Shown: positions 11,981 through 21,536 of the stretch, piece after piece
How the letters are laid out: each line of letters starts with the position of its first letter
Position numbering within the stretch: position 1 is the stretch's first letter
Origin: Ruminococcus sp.
Lineage (GTDB): Bacteria > Bacillota > Clostridia > Oscillospirales > Ruminococcaceae
Length of the DNA: 64,000 nt
Assembly (NCBI GenBank): GCA_017519415.1
Contig: JAFWSI010000024.1
Span: forward strand, 62,001 to 126,000
Direction of reading: 5' to 3'
The notes under the pieces: generated by a model
Told to the model about the DNA's origin: nothing
Databases searched by the model: none
The model's input: only the letters and a program-made list of their open reading frames with translations
Translations under genes and position numbers: made by a program

Positions 11981-14900
11981 TTATTCCTCTTCCTTTTTAT
12001 TCCTTATCACCATAGCTGCGCCTGCCAGAGTCATAAGAACTGCAAGGCCTGCGATGAAGTCAAATGATACGGGATAGCCTGTTTCCGGCAGTGTGGAGCC
12101 TTCGCCCCCGCCGCTCGTTGTAGTCTGAACAGGCTGTGTTGTCGTGGAAGTTACGGTTGTGCTCGATTCCGGAGCATTTGTGGTTGTAGTAGTGGTCGTT
12201 GTTGTAGATGTGGTGGCCGTTGTTGTGGTGGTTGTGGTTGTTGTGGTTGTCGTAGTAATGGTTGTAGTTGAGGTTGTTGATACGATAGGACCATTGCCGC
12301 TGAGATCATAGCCATAGCCGCTGTAGTCCTTTACCTCGCCCTTTGCCAGAAGCTTGCAGCCCTGACCGACAGTTATCTTAGTATAGGGAGTTATAACAAG
12401 CATAAGCTCCTCGGGAACAGTAACGTCCTCAACGATATTCACATCTCCGAATATATAGAGATCAGGCTTCTCCTCTGCCTTTTCAGCGTCAGCCAGTGCT
12501 CCTCTTATATCCTGATAAGCCTGACCGTTGCTGAGCATTGCTGTCGCCTCTTTTGGAAGCTGTGTGCAGTCGATAAGACCGCCGCAGGTATCGCAGAATG
12601 AAGCCATAACTGCGCCGTGATCCTCACCGGGCATATCCAGTATGAAGAATTCACCTTTGCACTCGTGCTCGTCAACTACCTGAACAGGTATGCGCATCTC
12701 CTCCTCGCCGTTTTCCGCAACAGCGCACAGAGTTGCCTTTATGCCGGCCTTCTTGGGTGTTACCTTAATGACAGCATCACTGTCAATAGTGATTGAGCCG
12801 TCCTCGTTTACGGTATACTCGCCGTCAACGACCTCTATATCGAAATCATCGCTGATCGTTTCGCTCTGAGCTCTTACCTTTCTGCCGGGAGCAAACTGTA
12901 TCGTACCGTCAGCTCTTACAACATAGAATATTACGCTTCCGCCTCCCTTGGGTGTACGGACTCTGTAATATACATCATGCATCAGCGTAAGAGAATTCTG
13001 AGTTATTCCTCTGTCATTAATAGATGACGCGCACAGCTGAGTATAGGCATATAAAATGTCATCAGCCGAGGCACCGGGAGCTGTAGCAGACTCAACGAAT
13101 ACTCCCAAATTGTAAACGCCCTGAACGGCATTTGGGGCTCCGCTCTTATCGAGCACCCAGCCCGTCAGATCCCTTGCCAGATTCTTAAGCAGGTCAAATG
13201 AGTATTTATCTGCAAGCTCGGGAGAAATATCGGTAATTATAACCTCATAGGGTATCTGTGTGGTTGAGCCCTCGAGAGTAGCTACCTCCACGCATTTCAG
13301 AACGTGCGCAACTACGATACTGTCAAGGATCGACTTATATACCGTCGATATAAGGTTTATACCGAGAAGATAGGGATTTCTTGACCAGCAGGTCAGAAGG
13401 GTTATAACGTCGGCAGCAATCTTCTGATTGCCTATCTCCTTTTCGAGAATGGATTTCCAGATGTCGTGTATGGTTATCTCCGCCACCAGCTGATCTCCCG
13501 GCTCGAGCTCGTCAAGGCGATAGCTCTGGTTGAGCTGCTCGTTCTGAAGCTGATCGATCTTTACCGATGTATCTATCAGCTTTCCGTCACGGTATTTCTT
13601 TGTTGTCAGCTTTGAATACTGCGTGAAGCCTAAAACAGTATGCTCGATATTGTATATGGGCTTGTCGGAAACGTTCTCAAAGCTTATTGTTACAGGGTAA
13701 TCCTCATCAAAGAAGGAGTATCTCGGAAGTATTATCTTCATTTTCAGAGCGTCGCCTGCGTATACATGAAGAGTATTCTTCGACTTGAAGTTGTACGTGA
13801 AGGGTTCTCCGCCGTTCCAGCCTTTCAGATCTGCCGTGAGATCATAGTCGCCGGCGACGTCGCCCCGCAGGTACCAGTGTATGGTATAGGGACTGCCGAC
13901 CTCAAGCTTGTCAAAGCTCTGTACTCTGTCGCAGTTCATCAGCGTAAGTCCCTCGGGTGAATTCAGGGTTGCAGTACAGTTGGTAAGCGACTGACCCGAT
14001 CCGTCCTTGTTTATGATGATGAGCTGTACATCGTAGAACTCCTTGAGCCACTTGCATTCGCCCCTGATCACCATGTACATCTCTTCTTTTTCGGTCTCCT
14101 GATAGCCGATGACCTTTACTGGTTCATTGTTTATGACAACGCTGGGAGGTATATTTATTGTTCCTCCTCCGCCGCCATAACTTGCAACAGGCTGTACGTC
14201 GTACTTGTTGATAACGACTGCCTCTGCCTCGAAGGTCATTTTGACCTCATACTTGAATACATGGTAGTTGGACGGATCCTCAAGGCTGATGCCTGCCTTC
14301 TTGATGTCGTCCATGTTCATTTCCTTGACGGTCATATCGCCGTCAATGTCCAGCTTATGGGGCTTCGGCGGAACAGGCTCCGTGGTGGTAGTCACGCGAA
14401 CGGTAGTTGCTGCCTTCGTCGTTGAGGTCGTCGCACTTGTGGTCGCAGTTTCAGCTGCCGCCTTTGTTGTAGTGGTTTCCGCGGCAGATGAATCGGAAGT
14501 TGTAGCTGTTGCAGGTGCGGGATCTATTCCCCATTCGCAGATAAAGCCCATGCTATTGACATTGTTGCCCCAGCCGTTGAGCTGATTGTCCTCCCAGCGG
14601 CCGTTATGCTTCATAATGATCATATAATGCTCGAGGCCGAGGAAATTATCGGGCTTTCCTGACTCCCAGTTGGTATAGCCCATTTCTTCGTCAGTTACCC
14701 AGTGGAAGGCACCGTCATCACCGCGGCGGGCGCCCAGCCAGTAATAGGGCTTTTCGGCGGCTTCCGAGCTGAGCGCATCGAATAATGCTTTCTGCTCCTC
14801 CTCGGAGGTTATTACCGCAAGGTGACCGCCTATGCTCTCGCAGTAAGCCTTTGCCTCATCCCATGTGAGACCGTCATCGAATATCTGATACTCCCAGCCG

Positions 14901-17167
14901 GAGGCATTTTTATACGTCAGTTTGGGAGTGAGCTTTGCAGTCGTTGTTGTGGCAGCCGTTGTAGTTGTAGTCGTTGTAGTTGTAGTTGTTGTGGTGGTGG
15001 TCGTGGTTGTTGTAGTTGTCGTAGTTGTGGTGATGGTCGTGGTAGTAGTTGTTATCGAAGCCACGTCCTCCCACTCGCAGATAAAGCCGTAGTTTTCAAT
15101 GGTGAAGAAATCTGCGGGAAATCCGCTTCCGTCCTTTTTGATGTCGTTCCACTCGCCCACAGCGCCGATCTCTTCAACGCCGTAGAGCATAGCAACCAGC
15201 TCATCTCTGGTATTGGGCTCGCCCGCGCTCCAGTTGGAATACTCAAACGCTTCGCCCGTTATCCATACGAAATTACCGTTTTCATCGCGCTCCGCGCCGA
15301 GCCAGTAATTCTTCGGCTCGGGTATTGCACTTATGAGAGCCTCGATCTCCTCCTGCTCCTCCTGAGAGGTTATGGTGACAAGGTGACCGCCGTTGCTCTC
15401 GCAGAATTCCTTTGCCTCGTCCCATGTAAGGCTTTCGCTGAATATCTGATAACGTGAGCTCTTGTCCACGGGAGTTGTTACCTTGTCTCCGTCAACAAGG
15501 AAGAACAGCTCTCCGTCCTTTGTAAGGGACAGCTTTCCGTTGACTCCCGCATTCTCGATATAGGGAGCGATATACCTCGTATCCACATACTTGGACAGGC
15601 CGCTGGTGATAACGCCGGACGCCTCGGAATAAATGGACGTGGAGGCGTTTGTGATGCTGCCTGTTATATTGACCTTTCCGCCCTTGGGGATATAGATTCC
15701 GCCCTTGGGACCGTTGACCGATATATTTCCGCTGAGGCTGAGGATATTATCTCCACGGCAGTATACGCCGTACTCGCTGCCGCTCTTTATGCTGCCGCCC
15801 GAGATATTTATCCTGCCCTTTGACGCTTCACTGTAAACGCAGGCGCCCAGCTCCGAGTATATCTCCGAACCCGTAATATTGATAGTGCCTGCAAAGTTAT
15901 CGGCTATCCACACAGGCGACATATAGTTATTGTCTTTTTTGCCGTCGCTGTTCGGATTTTTCAGTGCTCCTCCCGCAAGATTAACAGTACCGCTGCTCGT
16001 TCTTACAGAGAGGGCATTGCTGTAGTTTCCGATAATCTCGCCGCCGAAGAATTCAAAATTTCCGCCGTTTATCCTTACCGTTGCATAGATGGTGCTGCTA
16101 TCGTAGCCGACAATCCTGCCGCCGTATATGGTAAGATTTCCGTATGATGTGATAAGATTGTCGGACGCCGTGCTTATTATAGCGCCCTTCTTTTCGGGAT
16201 CGCTGTCTCTGATGACAACGTTGCCGCTGCATACTATATCTTTTATTTTTATGGTATGACCGTTGAGATCAATGTCAAGATCACTTACACTGGCACCTGA
16301 ATCCACGGTAACATCGCAGCCCAGCTTATAGCAGCCCTTTGCGGGAAGGCTGGTCTCGTCCGTCCATATGTAGCTGCTGAGAGGCTTGTCGTCCTTCTCC
16401 ATGATATAGCCGAAGTTTTCAAGTCCGTAGAAAGAGTCGCCCAGACAGGTACCGCTTTCATTTATATCGTCCCACGTGCCGACATTGCCGTATCTCTTGC
16501 CATAGAGCAGCACCGCATTCTGCTTGTTATCGATATTCTGCGGATTTCCCGGGTTCCAGTTGGTATAAACGGGGTCTTCGCCCGTTACCCAGACAAAATT
16601 CTTGTTCTCGTCCCATTTGAGACCTATCCAGTAGTTGTTCTTTATATCCTCCTGAGCCCTTATAAGAGCCTCAACCTGAGCCTGCTCCTCGGCGGAGGTT
16701 ATGCAGACAAGGTGGCCGCCGTTCTTCTCGCACTCGGCCTCAGCCTCCTGCCAGGTCAGACCCTTGCCGACCACCGTATAGTTTGCGGGGTCGGGATAGC
16801 GGCTCCACTCGATCTCTCCGTCATAGGGGAGCGTCAGTCCCTTGCTTCCCGTTATAAGCATAAGATAATGCTTCTGCACTATCTCTACGTCTCTCAGAGT
16901 GATCTTGCCGTCGTTGTCCGTGTCCGCCGCCTCAAGGCTGATACCGTCGGCTTCACCCTTGCAGACGTACTTCTCCATGAGTAAAGCGTCCATGATGTCG
17001 ATCATTCCGTTGCCGTCAGCGTCGCCGCAGATCACCTCGGACTTGCTCTCCTCCTCTGCTGCCGTTGCGACGGGGGGCATGACAGCCATGAGCTGACTGC
17101 ACGCAACTGCGGAAGCAGCGAGGACAGACAGGATCCTTTTACCTGCCCTGCCATTGTGTTTATGCAT
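11981..17167 (-). CDS. LPETG-anchored surface protein with dockerin and three C-type lectin domains
   Basis: A 1728-residue protein. The signal peptide (1-37) is followed at once by a dockerin (about 46-106: GDADGNGMIDIMDALLMEK, DTDNDGKITLRDVEIVQK). C-type lectin-like domains lie near 128-258, 570-700 and 760-880, each with a GLTWQEAEAEC-like start, a YWIGLK-type core and an NFGYIME or MGFICEW end. A beta-solenoid-like region spans about 290-560. Thr-rich linkers are near 703-740, 880-930 and 1627-1664. The end has LPETG (about 1691), a membrane helix and KKEEE. ATG at 17167 is chosen because GGAGGT sits seven bases upstream; transcription starts at 17226-17254. A dockerin on a wall-anchored protein suggests a bridge between the cell wall and cohesin-bearing scaffolds, with the lectin domains binding glycans. 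That role is inference. Confidence 0.9.
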   Translation of the reverse strand: MHKHNGRAGKRILSVLAASAVACSQLMAVMPPVATAAEEESKSEVICGDADGNGMIDIMDALLMEKYVCKGEADGISLEAADTDNDGKITLRDVEIVQKHYLMLITGSKGLTLPYDGEIEWSRYPDPANYTVVGKGLTWQEAEAECEKNGGHLVCITSAEEQAQVEALIRAQEDIKNNYWIGLKWDENKNFVWVTGEDPVYTNWNPGNPQNIDNKQNAVLLYGKRYGNVGTWDDINESGTCLGDSFYGLENFGYIMEKDDKPLSSYIWTDETSLPAKGCYKLGCDVTVDSGASVSDLDIDLNGHTIKIKDIVCSGNVVIRDSDPEKKGAIISTASDNLITSYGNLTIYGGRIVGYDSSTIYATVRINGGNFEFFGGEIIGNYSNALSVRTSSGTVNLAGGALKNPNSDGKKDNNYMSPVWIADNFAGTINITGSEIYSELGACVYSEASKGRINISGGSIKSGSEYGVYCRGDNILSLSGNISVNGPKGGIYIPKGGKVNITGSITNASTSIYSEASGVITSGLSKYVDTRYIAPYIENAGVNGKLSLTKDGELFFLVDGDKVTTPVDKSSRYQIFSESLTWDEAKEFCESNGGHLVTITSQEEQEEIEALISAIPEPKNYWLGAERDENGNFVWITGEAFEYSNWSAGEPNTRDELVAMLYGVEEIGAVGEWNDIKKDGSGFPADFFTIENYGFICEWEDVASITTTTTTITTTTTTTTTTTTTTTTTTTTTTTTTAATTTTAKLTPKLTYKNASGWEYQIFDDGLTWDEAKAYCESIGGHLAVITSEEEQKALFDALSSEAAEKPYYWLGARRGDDGAFHWVTDEEMGYTNWESGKPDNFLGLEHYMIIMKHNGRWEDNQLNGWGNNVNSMGFICEWGIDPAPATATTSDSSAAETTTTKAAAETATTSATTSTTKAATTVRVTTTTEPVPPKPHKLDIDGDMTVKEMNMDDIKKAGISLEDPSNYHVFKYEVKMTFEAEAVVINKYDVQPVASYGGGGGTINIPPSVVINNEPVKVIGYQETEKEEMYMVIRGECKWLKEFYDVQLIIINKDGSGQSLTNCTATLNSPEGLTLMNCDRVQSFDKLEVGSPYTIHWYLRGDVAGDYDLTADLKGWNGGEPFTYNFKSKNTLHVYAGDALKMKIILPRYSFFDEDYPVTISFENVSDKPIYNIEHTVLGFTQYSKLTTKKYRDGKLIDTSVKIDQLQNEQLNQSYRLDELEPGDQLVAEITIHDIWKSILEKEIGNQKIAADVITLLTCWSRNPYLLGINLISTVYKSILDSIVVAHVLKCVEVATLEGSTTQIPYEVIITDISPELADKYSFDLLKNLARDLTGWVLDKSGAPNAVQGVYNLGVFVESATAPGASADDILYAYTQLCASSINDRGITQNSLTLMHDVYYRVRTPKGGGSVIFYVVRADGTIQFAPGRKVRAQSETISDDFDIEVVDGEYTVNEDGSITIDSDAVIKVTPKKAGIKATLCAVAENGEEEMRIPVQVVDEHECKGEFFILDMPGEDHGAVMASFCDTCGGLIDCTQLPKEATAMLSNGQAYQDIRGALADAEKAEEKPDLYIFGDVNIVEDVTVPEELMLVITPYTKITVGQGCKLLAKGEVKDYSGYGYDLSGNGPIVSTTSTTTITTTTTTTTTTTTTATTSTTTTTTTTTNAPESSTTVTSTTTQPVQTTTSGGGEGSTLPETGYPVSFDFIAGLAVLMTLAGAAMVIRNKKEEE
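12177..12282 (-). repeat. low-complexity Thr-codon repeat (C-terminal linker)
   Basis: Near-continuous ACN codons, seen on the plus strand as GTNGTNGT repeats, encode a Thr-rich linker just before the LPETG region. Such tracts are prone to length change. Confidence 0.85.
14943..15056 (-). repeat. low-complexity Thr-codon repeat (linker between lectin domains 2 and 3)
   Basis: A run of about 35 Thr codons of mixed ACN usage, interrupted only by an Ile and a pair of Ala. It separates the second and third C-type lectin domains. Confidence 0.85.
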
Positions 17168-17225
17168 TTTCAAGACCTCCATTTCATTTTTCCTTACGGG
17201 TTCTTCCAATAATCTGTCACATTAA

Positions 17226-18096: not shown

Positions 18097-18126
18097 AAAG
18101 CCTCGTCACATATGTGACGAGGCTTT
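18097..18126. terminator. bidirectional terminator
   Basis: A perfect palindrome (CCTCGTCACAT and its complement at 18101-18122) extended by AAAG/CTTT, flanked by A and T runs on both sides. It ends both the hydrolase gene and the radical SAM operon. Confidence 0.85.
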
Positions 18127-18133
18127 ATTTTTA

Positions 18134-19207
18134 TCAGAAAAGTATATCCTTGAAGCAGAGCTGCGGCTTGTTGTTGTCGAAGTCCCAGCTGTGATAGGAA
18201 TCGCCGTGGCAGTAATCCTTATGCTCGCATTCCGTGCAGGTCGGATTATCGTCCGCAAGATCGCGCCTGAATATCTGGAACTTGTTCTTCCAGACCTCGC
18301 TGAAACGGTCGCGGAGGATATTGCCCTGAACGAACTCGGGACGGCGCTCGATGTCGAGACAGGCAATGATGTCGCCGTTCGCGGTGATGCTCGCCGTATA
18401 GAGTCCCGCCGTGCAGAGGTAATACCAGTCGCGCACCTCTCTCTCGTACTCCATGCCGAGATAATGGCTGCATCCGTAAACAACGGGCTCGCCTGCTATA
18501 CGCTTGTTCCTGATGAACTCAAAGAGGTATCTGTAATCGTCGGGCGTGAGTATGAGCTCGGGGTGCTGCTTTGCACGTCCCATGGGCTCCATATTGATAA
18601 CACGCCACGAATCTATATCCATACCGTTGAATATCTTATAGAGCTCGTCAAGCTCGCTTATGCTCTTGTGAGTAACGACGGTGGTGACCTGAACGCTCTC
18701 GAAGCCTCCTACACGCAGCAGGCTCTCTATACCGTTCATAGCCTTCTTATAGCCGCCGGGAGTCCTTCTGAAGGCGTCGTGAGTTTCCTCGAGACCGTCG
18801 ATGCTTACGGAGATAGTACCCATACCCACTCTTTTCAGGTCGCGGGCAACAGAATCGTCAATAAGGGTAGCGTTGCTGGTCATTCCCCACTCAAAGCCGA
18901 GCTCGTGAGCAGCTCCGAGAATATCGAAGAAATCCTTTCTCAGCAGAGGCTCTCCGCCCGTTATATCGAGCATCTTGCCTCTTGTGGTCATATCCTCCTT
19001 TACCTGCTGTAAAAACGTCCTGTACTGGTCAACGGTGAGCTCCTCCGAGGTCACATCTCCGCAGTGACTTCCGCAGTGAAGACATCTCTCGTTGCAGCGC
19101 AAGGTGAGCTCAAGGAAGAGGTTGCGAAGCTGGGGCTCCTTCATGAGCTTCTGACGGTAGTCTCTCATCTGATTAAGATGATCGCGCTTCATATTCACAT
19201 CAAGCAT
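18134..19207 (-). CDS. radical SAM/SPASM protein, candidate maturase of the YG-motif proteins
   Basis: A cytoplasmic radical SAM enzyme of 357 residues. The SAM-cluster motif is CNERCLHC (C38, C42, C45), with C49 just after it, and GGEP lies at 84-87. The C-terminal third has a SPASM-like Cys set (C246, C265, C283, C324, C327, C333, C351) expected to hold auxiliary iron-sulfur clusters, as in enzymes that modify peptides. It is the last gene of a four-gene operon, one base after the stop of the 300-residue YG-motif protein, with AGGAG upstream. No separate peptide-recognition (RRE) domain is seen. The context argues for modification of the three upstream exported proteins; the reaction is unknown. 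Alternatives are a sulfatase-maturase-like or heme-d1-type SPASM enzyme. Confidence 0.87.
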   Translation of the reverse strand: MLDVNMKRDHLNQMRDYRQKLMKEPQLRNLFLELTLRCNERCLHCGSHCGDVTSEELTVDQYRTFLQQVKEDMTTRGKMLDITGGEPLLRKDFFDILGAAHELGFEWGMTSNATLIDDSVARDLKRVGMGTISVSIDGLEETHDAFRRTPGGYKKAMNGIESLLRVGGFESVQVTTVVTHKSISELDELYKIFNGMDIDSWRVINMEPMGRAKQHPELILTPDDYRYLFEFIRNKRIAGEPVVYGCSHYLGMEYEREVRDWYYLCTAGLYTASITANGDIIACLDIERRPEFVQGNILRDRFSEVWKNKFQIFRRDLADDNPTCTECEHKDYCHGDSYHSWDFDNNKPQLCFKDILF

Positions 19208-19208
19208 T

Positions 19209-20111
19209 TTACTTCTCCTCTGTGGTATTTGGTTCTGCGGTGGTAGCAGTAGTCTTTGTTCCACTTATATCCTTCGCATACCTGTTGGTATTCATTGTAC
19301 CGTAAACAGGAACTATAAGATCCTTTCTGGGGTCGTAAGTAGTTGTTTCCGTCTTCCAGAGGATCTTATCGGAGGAAGTTGTGGTAGTCGGTACTGACAG
19401 ATCGGCGGTAGTGGTAGTGGAAGTTGTCTTTATGCTGCTGTCGTCGCCCTCAAGAGGAGAACCTGTCATTCCGAGGAGGTATCTTGTAAGCTTTACAACG
19501 TCGCCTATATCGACCTTGTTGTTCTTGTTGAGGTCACAGCGCAGCTGATCGAAATAGCTGTCATACTGCTGGGTGATGACAGTCCTTCTGAGCTTGATAA
19601 GGTCGTATGCATCGATAACGCCGTCGCTGTTTATGTCGCCGTAATCCTTGAAAGTAATGGGCGGGCCGTAGAGAGTCGCCATGGTGGTCTCCGTAGCTGT
19701 AACGATAGTAGTCGGCATTGCGCCGTAAGCAGGCTGAGTCGGCATAGCAGTAGTCTGTGTGAGCGTTGTGGGAATAACGCCGTAAGCAGGCTGCGGAAGC
19801 ATAGTAGTGGTCTGTGTGAGCATTGTGGGCATAACCCCGTATAACGGAACGGTGGTCGTGGCAGTCATTGCAACTGCGGGATCCGAAAAGGTCGTGGTCT
19901 CCACGTCATAGACCGGTGCGGGACCGTATACGTCCTGAGGTATGCTGCTTGCGGCCATTTCCAGCTTGTCCTGCAATGTCTCTATCAGGGACTTGCCGCT
20001 GTCCTGTCTTGTATTGTTTCCGTAGCCCTCTGCTGCCATGGTAGGCATAGCCGACGCATTTGACGCTGCGAACAGAGCGGCCGTCAGTAATGTGTGTATC
20101 GTTTTTTTCAT
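19209..20111 (-). CDS. exported dockerin protein with seven Tyr-Gly motifs
   Basis: A 300-residue protein with a signal peptide (1-27). Tyr-Gly pairs lie at residues 30, 62, 91, 110, 129, 148 and 270. Those at 91-148 are exactly 19 residues apart and read LYGVMP, AYGVIP, AYGAMP and LYGPP in Thr/Gln/Pro-rich linker. A two-repeat dockerin follows (about 157-217: GDINSDGVIDAYDLIKLRR, DLNKNNKVDIGDVVKLTR), then a Thr-rich tail. Only one Cys is present, inside the dockerin. ATG at 20111 is preferred over GTG at 20129 because AAGGAG lies just upstream. The start gap to the previous gene is 43 bases. It is a probable substrate of the radical SAM enzyme encoded next. Confidence 0.82.
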   Translation of the reverse strand: MKKTIHTLLTAALFAASNASAMPTMAAEGYGNNTRQDSGKSLIETLQDKLEMAASSIPQDVYGPAPVYDVETTTFSDPAVAMTATTTVPLYGVMPTMLTQTTTMLPQPAYGVIPTTLTQTTAMPTQPAYGAMPTTIVTATETTMATLYGPPITFKDYGDINSDGVIDAYDLIKLRRTVITQQYDSYFDQLRCDLNKNNKVDIGDVVKLTRYLLGMTGSPLEGDDSSIKTTSTTTTADLSVPTTTTSSDKILWKTETTTYDPRKDLIVPVYGTMNTNRYAKDISGTKTTATTAEPNTTEEK

Positions 20112-20154
20112 GTTCCATCTCTCCTTCACATTTTATGTCAGCAAGGAAAACGGC

Positions 20155-21045
20155 TTATTTCTCCTCGGAAAAATCCGTATCCTTTATCTTGTTTATGGAA
20201 TCCTCAGTGATCTCCCTTACGATGTCTATACTGGGCTTGATGCCGTAGAGGGATATAACAATGTCGCTGCCGGGGTCGAACTTTGAAGTGGTGGTGGTAG
20301 TCACCACGGGCTTCTTGCCTGTTGTGGTAGCGGTATCCGTTACCTTGTCGCCTATCTTCTCGATCTCGATATTATGGCTGCCGTAGAAATAGCCGTACTT
20401 CTTCTGCAGCTCCTGCTTTGACACCTGACCCAGCAGGTATTTCTGGAGGAGCACCAGATCGGCAAGGGTAAGCTTGCCGTCGTTGTTCATATCGGCGTAG
20501 TAGGCTTCCATATATCCGTCCGAATAGCGCTCAACGCCCTTTATCAGCATTTTCTTTACCGCAAGAACGTCAAAGGAATCCACGATGTTGTCAAGATTTA
20601 CGTCTCCCAGGAAATCCTGGAGGGGAGGTCCGTAAACGGGCTGAGGGATAGTTGTTGTGGTAGTTGTCATCCAGGGCTCGAACAGAGTGGTGGAGGTGCC
20701 TGTGGTGGTGGTCTCCTTTTCGTCAGCCTCGGACGAGGTGGTGGTGATCTCCTTTTCGTCAGCCGCAGATGAGGTGGTTGTCGTAGTGAACATCCAGGGC
20801 GAACCGTAGAGGAGAGCGGGCTTCGTAGTAGTTGCAGAGGAGAAATCCCACATATCGTCCCTGAAGGATTCCTTGATGGTCTCATATGTCTTACCGCTGT
20901 TTTTCTCACCGAAGGAAACAGTCTCAACGGGATCGACCTCGGGACGGACGGCTGCGCCGTTATCGGCGGCGGCAGCGGGAACTGCCGAAACGTTTGCGGC
21001 AGCGAACATAGCTGCTGTCAGCAGTGTATGCAGACTTTTTTTCAT
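20155..21045 (-). CDS. exported dockerin protein with Tyr-Gly motifs
   Basis: A 296-residue paralogue of the next gene product, with an almost identical signal peptide start (MKKSLHTLLTAAMFAAANVS against MKKTIHTLLTAALFAASNAS). Tyr-Gly pairs occur at 80 (LLYGSP), 138 (PVYGPP), 217 and 221 (KKYGYFYGS) and 267 (SLYGIKP). Thr-rich linker with DEKE-Thr repeats fills about 85-135. A dockerin lies at about 147-210 (GDVNLDNIVDSFDVLAVKK, DMNNDGKLTLADLVLLQKY). It contains no cysteine at all. AAGGAG is eight bases before the ATG at 21045. It probably docks on a cellulosome scaffold outside the cell. Confidence 0.82.
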   Translation of the reverse strand: MKKSLHTLLTAAMFAAANVSAVPAAAADNGAAVRPEVDPVETVSFGEKNSGKTYETIKESFRDDMWDFSSATTTKPALLYGSPWMFTTTTTSSAADEKEITTTSSEADEKETTTTGTSTTLFEPWMTTTTTTIPQPVYGPPLQDFLGDVNLDNIVDSFDVLAVKKMLIKGVERYSDGYMEAYYADMNNDGKLTLADLVLLQKYLLGQVSKQELQKKYGYFYGSHNIEIEKIGDKVTDTATTTGKKPVVTTTTTSKFDPGSDIVISLYGIKPSIDIVREITEDSINKIKDTDFSEEK

Positions 21046-21138
21046 AGCAAAAACTCCTTTCACCAAAATCGGTAATTATTTTCTGAATTTCCCTTCTCAC
21101 AAGCGCTGTCCTTTTCGAACCGACGGCGCTTTTCTTTC

Positions 21139-21474
21139 TTATTCCTGAGGCGGACCGTAAACGATCTGCACCTTATCCTTTGACACGTCGTAGTTTGTCG
21201 TTACAGGCTCCGTAACAGCGTCTGTGGCAAATGTGTCTGTCTCGGGCGGTCCGTAGAGTGCAGGCACAGTCACAGGCTTTTCCGTCTTTGTGACCTTCTC
21301 GGCCACAGGAGCGCCGTATTCCGTCTGCATGGCCGCTGTAACATCTGTGGTGGCTTCTGTTACAGGCGGTCCGTAAACGTCCTGAACATTATCGCCGCCG
21401 TGCTCACAGCCTGTGAGCACAGCTGCTCCCGTAAGCACAGCAGCTATCAGAGCAGTCTTTTTTGTTTTTTTCAC
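21139..21474 (-). CDS. small lipoprotein with four YG(P/A)P motifs
   Basis: The first gene of the radical SAM operon. With the GTG at 21474 the product has 111 residues: a lipoprotein signal peptide with lipobox LTGC (lipidated Cys23), then a short Thr/Val/Glu-rich mature part carrying VYGPP (Y34), EYGAP (Y53), LYGPP (Y74) and VYGPP (Y106), the last almost at the C-terminus. The only Cys is the lipobox one. The GTG is supported by GGAGG eight bases upstream and by the promoter at 21508-21536, which lies inside the longer open frame (ATG at 21681) and so excludes it. It resembles a minimal, membrane-anchored carrier of the motif and is the simplest candidate substrate. Confidence 0.78.
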   Translation of the reverse strand: MKKTKKTALIAAVLTGAAVLTGCEHGGDNVQDVYGPPVTEATTDVTAAMQTEYGAPVAEKVTKTEKPVTVPALYGPPETDTFATDAVTEPVTTNYDVSKDKVQIVYGPPQE

Positions 21475-21507
21475 AAGCCTCGCCTCCGTGTTGTTATACT
21501 TACTATT

Positions 21508-21536
21508 ATTGTACTCCAAAAAATGGGATTTGTCAA
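21508..21536 (-). promoter_or_regulatory. promoter of the YG-motif/radical SAM operon
   Basis: Minus-strand TTGACA (21531-21536) and TACAAT (21508-21513), 17-base spacer, about 34 bases before the GTG start. Confidence 0.72.

Follow-up and report, generated by a model that had tools for sequence, protein, structure and literature searches.

The closest described counterparts of the system studied here are found among radical S-adenosylmethionine (SAM) enzymes carrying a SPASM domain. One is an orphan pair of NCBIfam, in which an enzyme of TIGR04133 (rSAM_w_lipo), a hypothetical equivalog without assigned function, accompanies a 'radical SAM-associated putative lipoprotein' (TIGR04134): there also, a homologous enzyme is next to an exported protein that has a YGxP motif close to the N-terminus, such as CEYGSP in Parabacteroides, CEYGTP in Phocaeicola and CYGMP in Treponema. 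Another is PlpX of Pleurocapsa which, together with PlpY, is described as cutting a tyramine unit out of the chain at XYG, the native sites being MYG and LYG (PMC10533398). According to the same source, PlpXY requires no leader and takes ten-residue tags such as PIRPxYGLPI (LYGLP or GYGLP context) inside unrelated proteins; for FtsZ, 2 of the 16 tag designs listed were accepted (PMC10533398). Hydroxylamine or a tetrazine served there to probe the PlpXY ketoamides. We analysed an operon of Ruminococcus sp. (assembly GCA_017519415.1) contained in a stretch of 64,000 nucleotides (contig JAFWSI010000024.1, positions 62,001 to 126,000 of the forward strand), referred to below as the window. It encodes a radical SAM/SPASM enzyme and three exported proteins studded with Tyr-Gly motifs. 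Given such partners, and a pairing that is kept in many related bacteria, the enzyme probably edits those proteins, rewriting them at the Tyr-Gly motif before they arrive at the cell surface.

The operon lies on the minus strand of the window, in the order lipoprotein, dockerin protein A, dockerin protein B and radical SAM/SPASM enzyme. Its features, in window coordinates, are the following:

21508..21536, minus strand: sigma-70-like promoter, TTGACA-17-TACAAT (consensus scan, 11/12 matches)
21139..21474, minus strand: lipoprotein, 111 amino acids, GTG start at 21474, lipobox LTGC, four YGxP motifs
21365..21378, minus strand: VYGPP codons, lipoprotein motif 1 (genome pattern match G000:C22:83365-83378 minus 62000)
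21245..21258, minus strand: LYGPP codons, lipoprotein motif 3 (genome codon-pattern match)
21149..21162, minus strand: VYGPP codons, lipoprotein motif 4 (genome codon-pattern match)
20155..21045, minus strand: dockerin protein A, 296 amino acids, Sec-type signal, type I dockerin (Dockerin_1, 41.1 bits)
20624..20637, minus strand: VYGPP codons, dockerin protein A (genome codon-pattern match)
19209..20111, minus strand: dockerin protein B, 300 amino acids, Sec-type signal, type I dockerin (Dockerin_1, 33.1 bits)
19660..19673, minus strand: LYGPP codons, dockerin protein B (genome codon-pattern match)
18134..19207, minus strand: radical SAM/SPASM enzyme, 357 amino acids, TIGR04133-like (TIGR04133, 272.2 bits; Radical_SAM and SPASM matches)
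18097..18126, minus strand: intrinsic terminator, 13-bp stem, 4-base loop, T run (terminator-like site)

The initial annotation had described the same operon, with its promoter, terminator, lipoprotein, two dockerin proteins and enzyme, and its order and coordinates match ours. As the region was no richer in promoter-like sites than shuffled sequences (3 versus a mean of 4.1), the promoter was called on the quality and the position of the site. Both dockerins are above the Pfam gathering score of PF00404 (22.9). For the lipoprotein, none of the Pfam or NCBIfam profiles came close to its cut-off. TIGR04134 was tried for it and rejected: that family had no match in the genome at E 0.001, none for the lipoprotein at E 1, and two weak matches in one other genome (G043).

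The lipoprotein contains four YGx(x)P motifs (VYGPP, EYGAP, LYGPP and VYGPP), dockerin protein A three (LYGSP, VYGPP and LYGIKP) and dockerin protein B five (VYGPAP, LYGVMP, AYGVIP, AYGAMP and LYGPP), together with a VYGTMN in which the proline is absent. Shuffling each mature part 20,000 times at constant composition matched these counts of 4, 3 and 5 in 0, 1 and 0 cases. They are also the top three among the 120 open reading frames (ORFs) of the window (mechanical ORFs of at least 100 amino acids), the next count being 1, which bears out the earlier statement that the exported trio has repeated Tyr-Gly motifs and that nothing comparable was seen in the other exported proteins of the window. 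Genome-wide, the YGPP codon pattern occurred 13 times and its backward control 14 times; 5 of the 13 YGPP sites are in the operon, although the genome has 105 dockerin matches. One YGPP match elsewhere lies in a protein that we named RuvB from its sequence. At 11981-17209 of the window (minus strand), a dockerin protein of 1742 amino acids, which contains lectin-like repeats and long stretches of Thr, has three [VLIAM]YG and no YGxP, unlike the operon proteins.

The enzyme was found in 17 of the 60 relatives searched (own genome included), all within the genus, and a same-strand YGPP ORF lay beside it in all 16 congeneric loci other than our own. In a class-wide sample, a homologue at E 1e-60 was present in 16 of 391 genomes (own included), with a same-strand YGxP ORF at 15 of the 16 loci and a YGPP ORF at 13. 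A wider contig scan, for which one of two search patterns contained HCGS, gave at least 577 confirmed loci. Among the best 80 of these (48-89% identity), 74 had a same-strand YGPP ORF, 71 of them at most 300 bases from the enzyme frame, and 66 had two or more motifs. The homologues do not, then, lie mostly away from YG-motif genes, and the initial proposal that the enzyme and the Tyr-Gly proteins belong together is upheld. Six of the 80 loci had no YGPP: two are cut off upstream (L096 and L128) and, among the four with upstream DNA, one (L116) encodes a lipoprotein with CGYGPS. When all ORFs of the 80 loci were clustered, no other partner family was present in more than 7 loci, antisense or overlapping enzyme frames aside. 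Three plasmid-borne relatives (Phocaeicola, Parabacteroides and Treponema) also adjoin YGxP lipoproteins. As controls, 22 further radical SAM loci were inspected, with flanks mostly of 0.4 to 1.5 kb; one frame with a single IYGMP was seen there and otherwise none.

Within the genus, the enzyme locus held at least two V/L-YGPP sites in 15 of the 17 enzyme-bearing genomes and one site in the other two, and a V/L-YGPP cluster was seen in only 1 of 19 genomes without an enzyme match (counts made by eye). In that genome (G004), a YGPP dockerin protein and a lipoprotein are located at the edge of a 3,012-base contig (L207:1-1043); the contig ends on the side where the enzyme is expected, and the enzyme probably lies off it. 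The pairing of the enzyme with Tyr-Gly-motif proteins is conserved, real and old.

A crude pattern recognized a signal-like N-terminus in 89 of the 103 YGPP ORFs, some of the remaining 14 being truncated or missed, and a dockerin was present in 21 of the 63 substrates scanned by Pfam (picked from the listed YGPP ORFs plus the three window proteins). In two loci (L073:148-3982 and L075:62-3982), the substrate set is strongly expanded: six YGPP proteins, several of which bear dockerins, stand in tandem ahead of the enzyme. In another genome (G018), a stand-alone lipoprotein of 71 amino acids with two CVYGPP (L206:2062-2277, contig 70) is a possible in-trans substrate, the enzyme locus being on contig 90.

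The 103 YGPP ORFs contained 293 YGxP, where 4.3 would be expected; the backward motif was counted 5 times. All 276 [VLIAM]xGPP sites had Tyr and all 276 [VLIAM]YxPP sites had Gly, although, as the choice of an ORF required one YGPP or more, one site in each is fixed in advance. Over the 293 sites, the residue before Tyr was Val (67%) or Leu (21%) in most cases, and that after Gly was Pro in 98%. In more distant relatives the middle residue varies, with MYGPP, MYGSP and LYGVP in Clostridia, CEYGSP and CEYGTP in Bacteroidota, and SCYGMP in Treponema; one class-level locus (L043) had only AYGID, without Pro. The conserved core is X-Tyr-Gly-x-Pro.

The enzyme matches Pfam Radical_SAM and SPASM. 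Its TIGR04133 score is below the curated cut-off of 425, and so is its score of 121.9 bits against TIGR04103 (cut-off 725), a family which we take to be IPR026482, the InterPro family of PlpX. An AlphaFold2 model was confident (pLDDT 94.4) and, at the level of secondary structure only, showed one N-terminal helix before the barrel and no separate three-strand, three-helix recognition element (RRE) of the kind known for ribosomally synthesized and post-translationally modified peptides (RiPPs). Ranking by profile was dropped as a way of picking the chemistry, since several SPASM families score alike, and trees and residue counts were used instead.

In the trees, TIGR04133-type and TIGR04103/TIGR03913-type enzymes formed one group. 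With 39 SPASM proteins, including AhbD-like, NirJ, MftC and other outgroups, the TIGR04133-type (15 rows) and PlpX-type (6 rows) enzymes were united with a support of 96/92; the values were 96/88 after removal of seven long or doubtful rows (32-row tree) and 91/86 in a first 30-row tree. The 15 TIGR04133-type rows, which include the present enzyme and those of Phocaeicola, Parabacteroides and Treponema, grouped at 100/99. Placement of TIGR04133 with the AhbD/NirJ types was rejected (p-AU 0.016); one of the four AhbD-labelled rows is over the cut-off of that family. Three rows were left out before the 39-row tree (own_L004, own_L005 and L051, the last being identical to L113), and row own_L002 is the longest motif-bearing minus-strand frame, which may be misread.

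The residue counts distinguish the same group. Gly46 is present in 21/21 TIGR04133- and PlpX-type rows versus 0/18 other SPASM proteins, Ser47 in 21/21 versus 2/18, Trp201 in 21/21 versus 2/18, and Glu255 in 20/21 versus 0/18. Gly46-Ser47, the last two residues of HCGS, come after the SAM-cluster motif; two of the 21 rows (L113 and L131) are from the HCGS-containing scan, and HCGS was partly selected in the scan loci because of that search pattern. As to precursors, the TIGR04103 enzyme of a Nostoc plasmid (853 bits) is preceded by a Nif11 precursor ending SIALYGLPPELF and followed by a protein of PlpY size (71 amino acids); the C-terminus of the PlpX-type precursor is LYGLPPELF. Across the phylum, TIGR04103 had a match at E 1e-60 in a single genome out of 299 and nowhere exceeded its cut-off; no small XYG peptide was seen adjacent to that match. 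Two plasmid loci of the PlpX group deserve mention. In Agathobacter rectalis, a 68-residue frame ending VMYGTGVRM just before the radical SAM gene (L153:2234-2440) is a candidate unannotated spliceotide precursor; in Tropicibacter oceani, a phosphotransferase-annotated gene containing FYGLPP adjoins the enzyme (L186:1206-2177).

The initial annotation did not name a reaction. The PlpX-type grouping, the common residues and the XYG sites make tyramine excision the likeliest one. We propose, with a probability of about 0.58, a two-part system in which the enzyme would splice tyramine out of XYG in exported substrates before export and the ketoamides would then be displayed; here we infer the modification itself as well as its chemistry, timing and role. 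The substrates, exported proteins with several [V/L/A/E]-Tyr-Gly-x-Pro sites each, would be synthesized with Sec or lipoprotein signals and edited, while unfolded, in the cytoplasm ahead of Sec export. Excision at XYG in the manner of PlpX would give alpha-keto-beta-amino acids, with the loss of C8H9NO (135.08 Da) per site. The lipoprotein would display ketoamides at the membrane, the dockerin proteins would bring them to the cellulosome, and the ketoamides may block proteases or undergo reactions with nucleophiles. Protease inhibition has been described for spliceotide ketoamides (PMC10373908; PMC11117315), and the account of the Ruminococcus flavefaciens FD-1 cellulosome includes serine protease inhibitors (serpins) among its non-catalytic dockerin proteins (PMC2721979); for these reasons, shielding of the cellulosome from rumen proteases is a plausible role.

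Several observations weigh against tyramine excision. The TIGR04103 score is lower than those for TIGR04545 (138), mycofactocin MftC (134) and NirJ2 (126), so that profile scores alone do not favour spliceases over AhbD, MftC and NirJ2 types, and the trees contain TIGR04103-type kin, not PlpX itself. No PlpY-like protein was found among the ORFs of the best 80 loci or of the own genome, the query being a single distant protein of 71 amino acids and PlpY being small and fast-diverging. The substrates have no Nif11 or nitrile-hydratase leader; they have Sec or lipoprotein signals and dockerins instead. Three of the best 80 loci (L108, L109 and L134) have upstream DNA, yet no candidate substrate. 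Lastly, the CX3C cysteine of the seven-cysteine SPASM set is absent in 15/15 TIGR04133-type rows and 43/43 close homologues and present in 6/6 PlpX-type rows, whereas Cys246 is found in 14/15 TIGR04133-type rows and 43/43 close homologues, the PlpX-type rows being reversed at 337 and 246. At position 337, all 15 TIGR04133-type rows have Ser, Ala or Gly and all 6 PlpX-type rows have Cys, and His339 is present in 15/15 TIGR04133-type rows. We read this as a change in the ligands of the first auxiliary cluster, which could mean a different chemistry or only a different tuning.

The alternative that survives best, though we consider it rather unlikely, is that the enzyme acts on YGxP by another radical reaction, i.e. 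a cross-link from the Tyr aryl group to carbon or as an ether, an epimerization, or an oxidation of Gly or Pro. Cross-links or epimers are products of many SPASM enzymes, and both the cluster cysteines, unlike those of PlpX-type rows, and the similar profile scores to several SPASM families agree with this alternative. However, near-invariance is limited to Tyr, Gly and the Pro at +3. Between Gly and Pro, the family at large has P, S, T, M, V or A, a pattern easier to reconcile with an XYG reaction than with cross-linking to a partner that stays constant. The PlpX-type enzymes are also the nearest sampled relatives.

YGPP might also be a structural, sorting or binding motif, the enzyme having its target elsewhere and sharing the operon for co-expression only. 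Some VYGPP proteins do occur away from the enzyme, such as a zinc-ribbon-like protein without signal in G008, with CVYGPPP between Cys pairs (L208:1469-2743); RuvB carries LYGPPG within its Walker A motif, and the 14 YGPP ORFs without a recognizable signal fit as well, allowing for those truncated or missed. This explanation becomes improbable when one considers that YGPP ORFs are the sole recurrent partner of the enzyme in the best 80 loci, that the pairing extends to Bacteroidota and Spirochaetota, and that the site clusters follow the presence of the enzyme within the genus. It is very improbable that the enzyme binds the Sec signal peptide as a RiPP-type leader, with products excised as small peptides. 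The substrate signals are indeed alike across loci (6.3 identities in 20 versus 3.8 for control signals) and in our operon (10.7 in 20 among the three signals versus 5.0 when they are compared with 19 pattern-picked controls of the genome). But common ancestry accounts for this just as readily, the best 80 loci have no recurrent dedicated protease or ABC transporter, and the dockerins and lipoboxes point to retention as proteins. The likeness, though explained as well by common descent, is a hint that the signal may also aid recognition.

The initial annotation had presented the system as a candidate new one, which is not supported in that form: the enzyme-lipoprotein pair is already known as the NCBIfam orphan. 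Our additions are the substrates with dockerins, the repetition of the sites, a proposed chemistry and the altered cysteines. In the open-licence literature of PubMed Central, no description of this enzyme/YGPP system was found in titles and abstracts. An orphan family of gut and rumen bacteria thereby gains a concrete substrate set, one testable reaction and a predicted mass shift. Should the reaction prove to be tyramine excision, beta-amino acids made by backbone editing would occur on ordinary surface and cellulosome proteins, beyond small natural products, and an enzyme free of PlpY and leader needs would be a handy protein-labelling tool. A study by Scott et al. in 2022, reportedly on spliceases and proteins, may overlap with this work and may already include this clade. 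Tentatively, and with slightly more doubt than belief, we extend tyramine excision to a splicing system that needs neither leader nor PlpY and has its auxiliary iron-sulphur site rewired; it would make several edits per surface or cellulosomal protein to produce ketoamide protease traps or covalent adhesins, and would have kin in Clostridia, Bacteroidota and Spirochaetota, gut commensals included.

Compared with the TIGR04133 pairs, the present substrates have repeated sites and dockerins, and the enzyme is below the family cut-off. TIGR03913 enzymes (GDL-motif, DUF1843 peptides) cluster with the PlpX-type rows, and PYG is found in some DUF1843 peptides; these peptides, however, are short and cytoplasmic-looking. 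The likeness to PlpXY (PlpX-type, TIGR04103) lies in the radical SAM/SPASM architecture, the XYG sites, the LYGxP context, the same sampled clade and the HCGS, Trp and Glu residues. The differences are that here no PlpY was found, that the substrates are exported proteins without Nif11 or nitrile-hydratase leader, and that the CX3C cysteine is replaced by Cys246 in the set of conserved cysteines. Since no PlpY was found, a RiPP leader is missing and the cluster cysteines differ, we do not file the enzyme as a PlpXY splicease and only propose that it works like one. As for the dockerin-borne serpins of FD-1, the parallel is one that we draw ourselves: those are folded inhibitors, whereas here inhibition would stem from the modified backbone.

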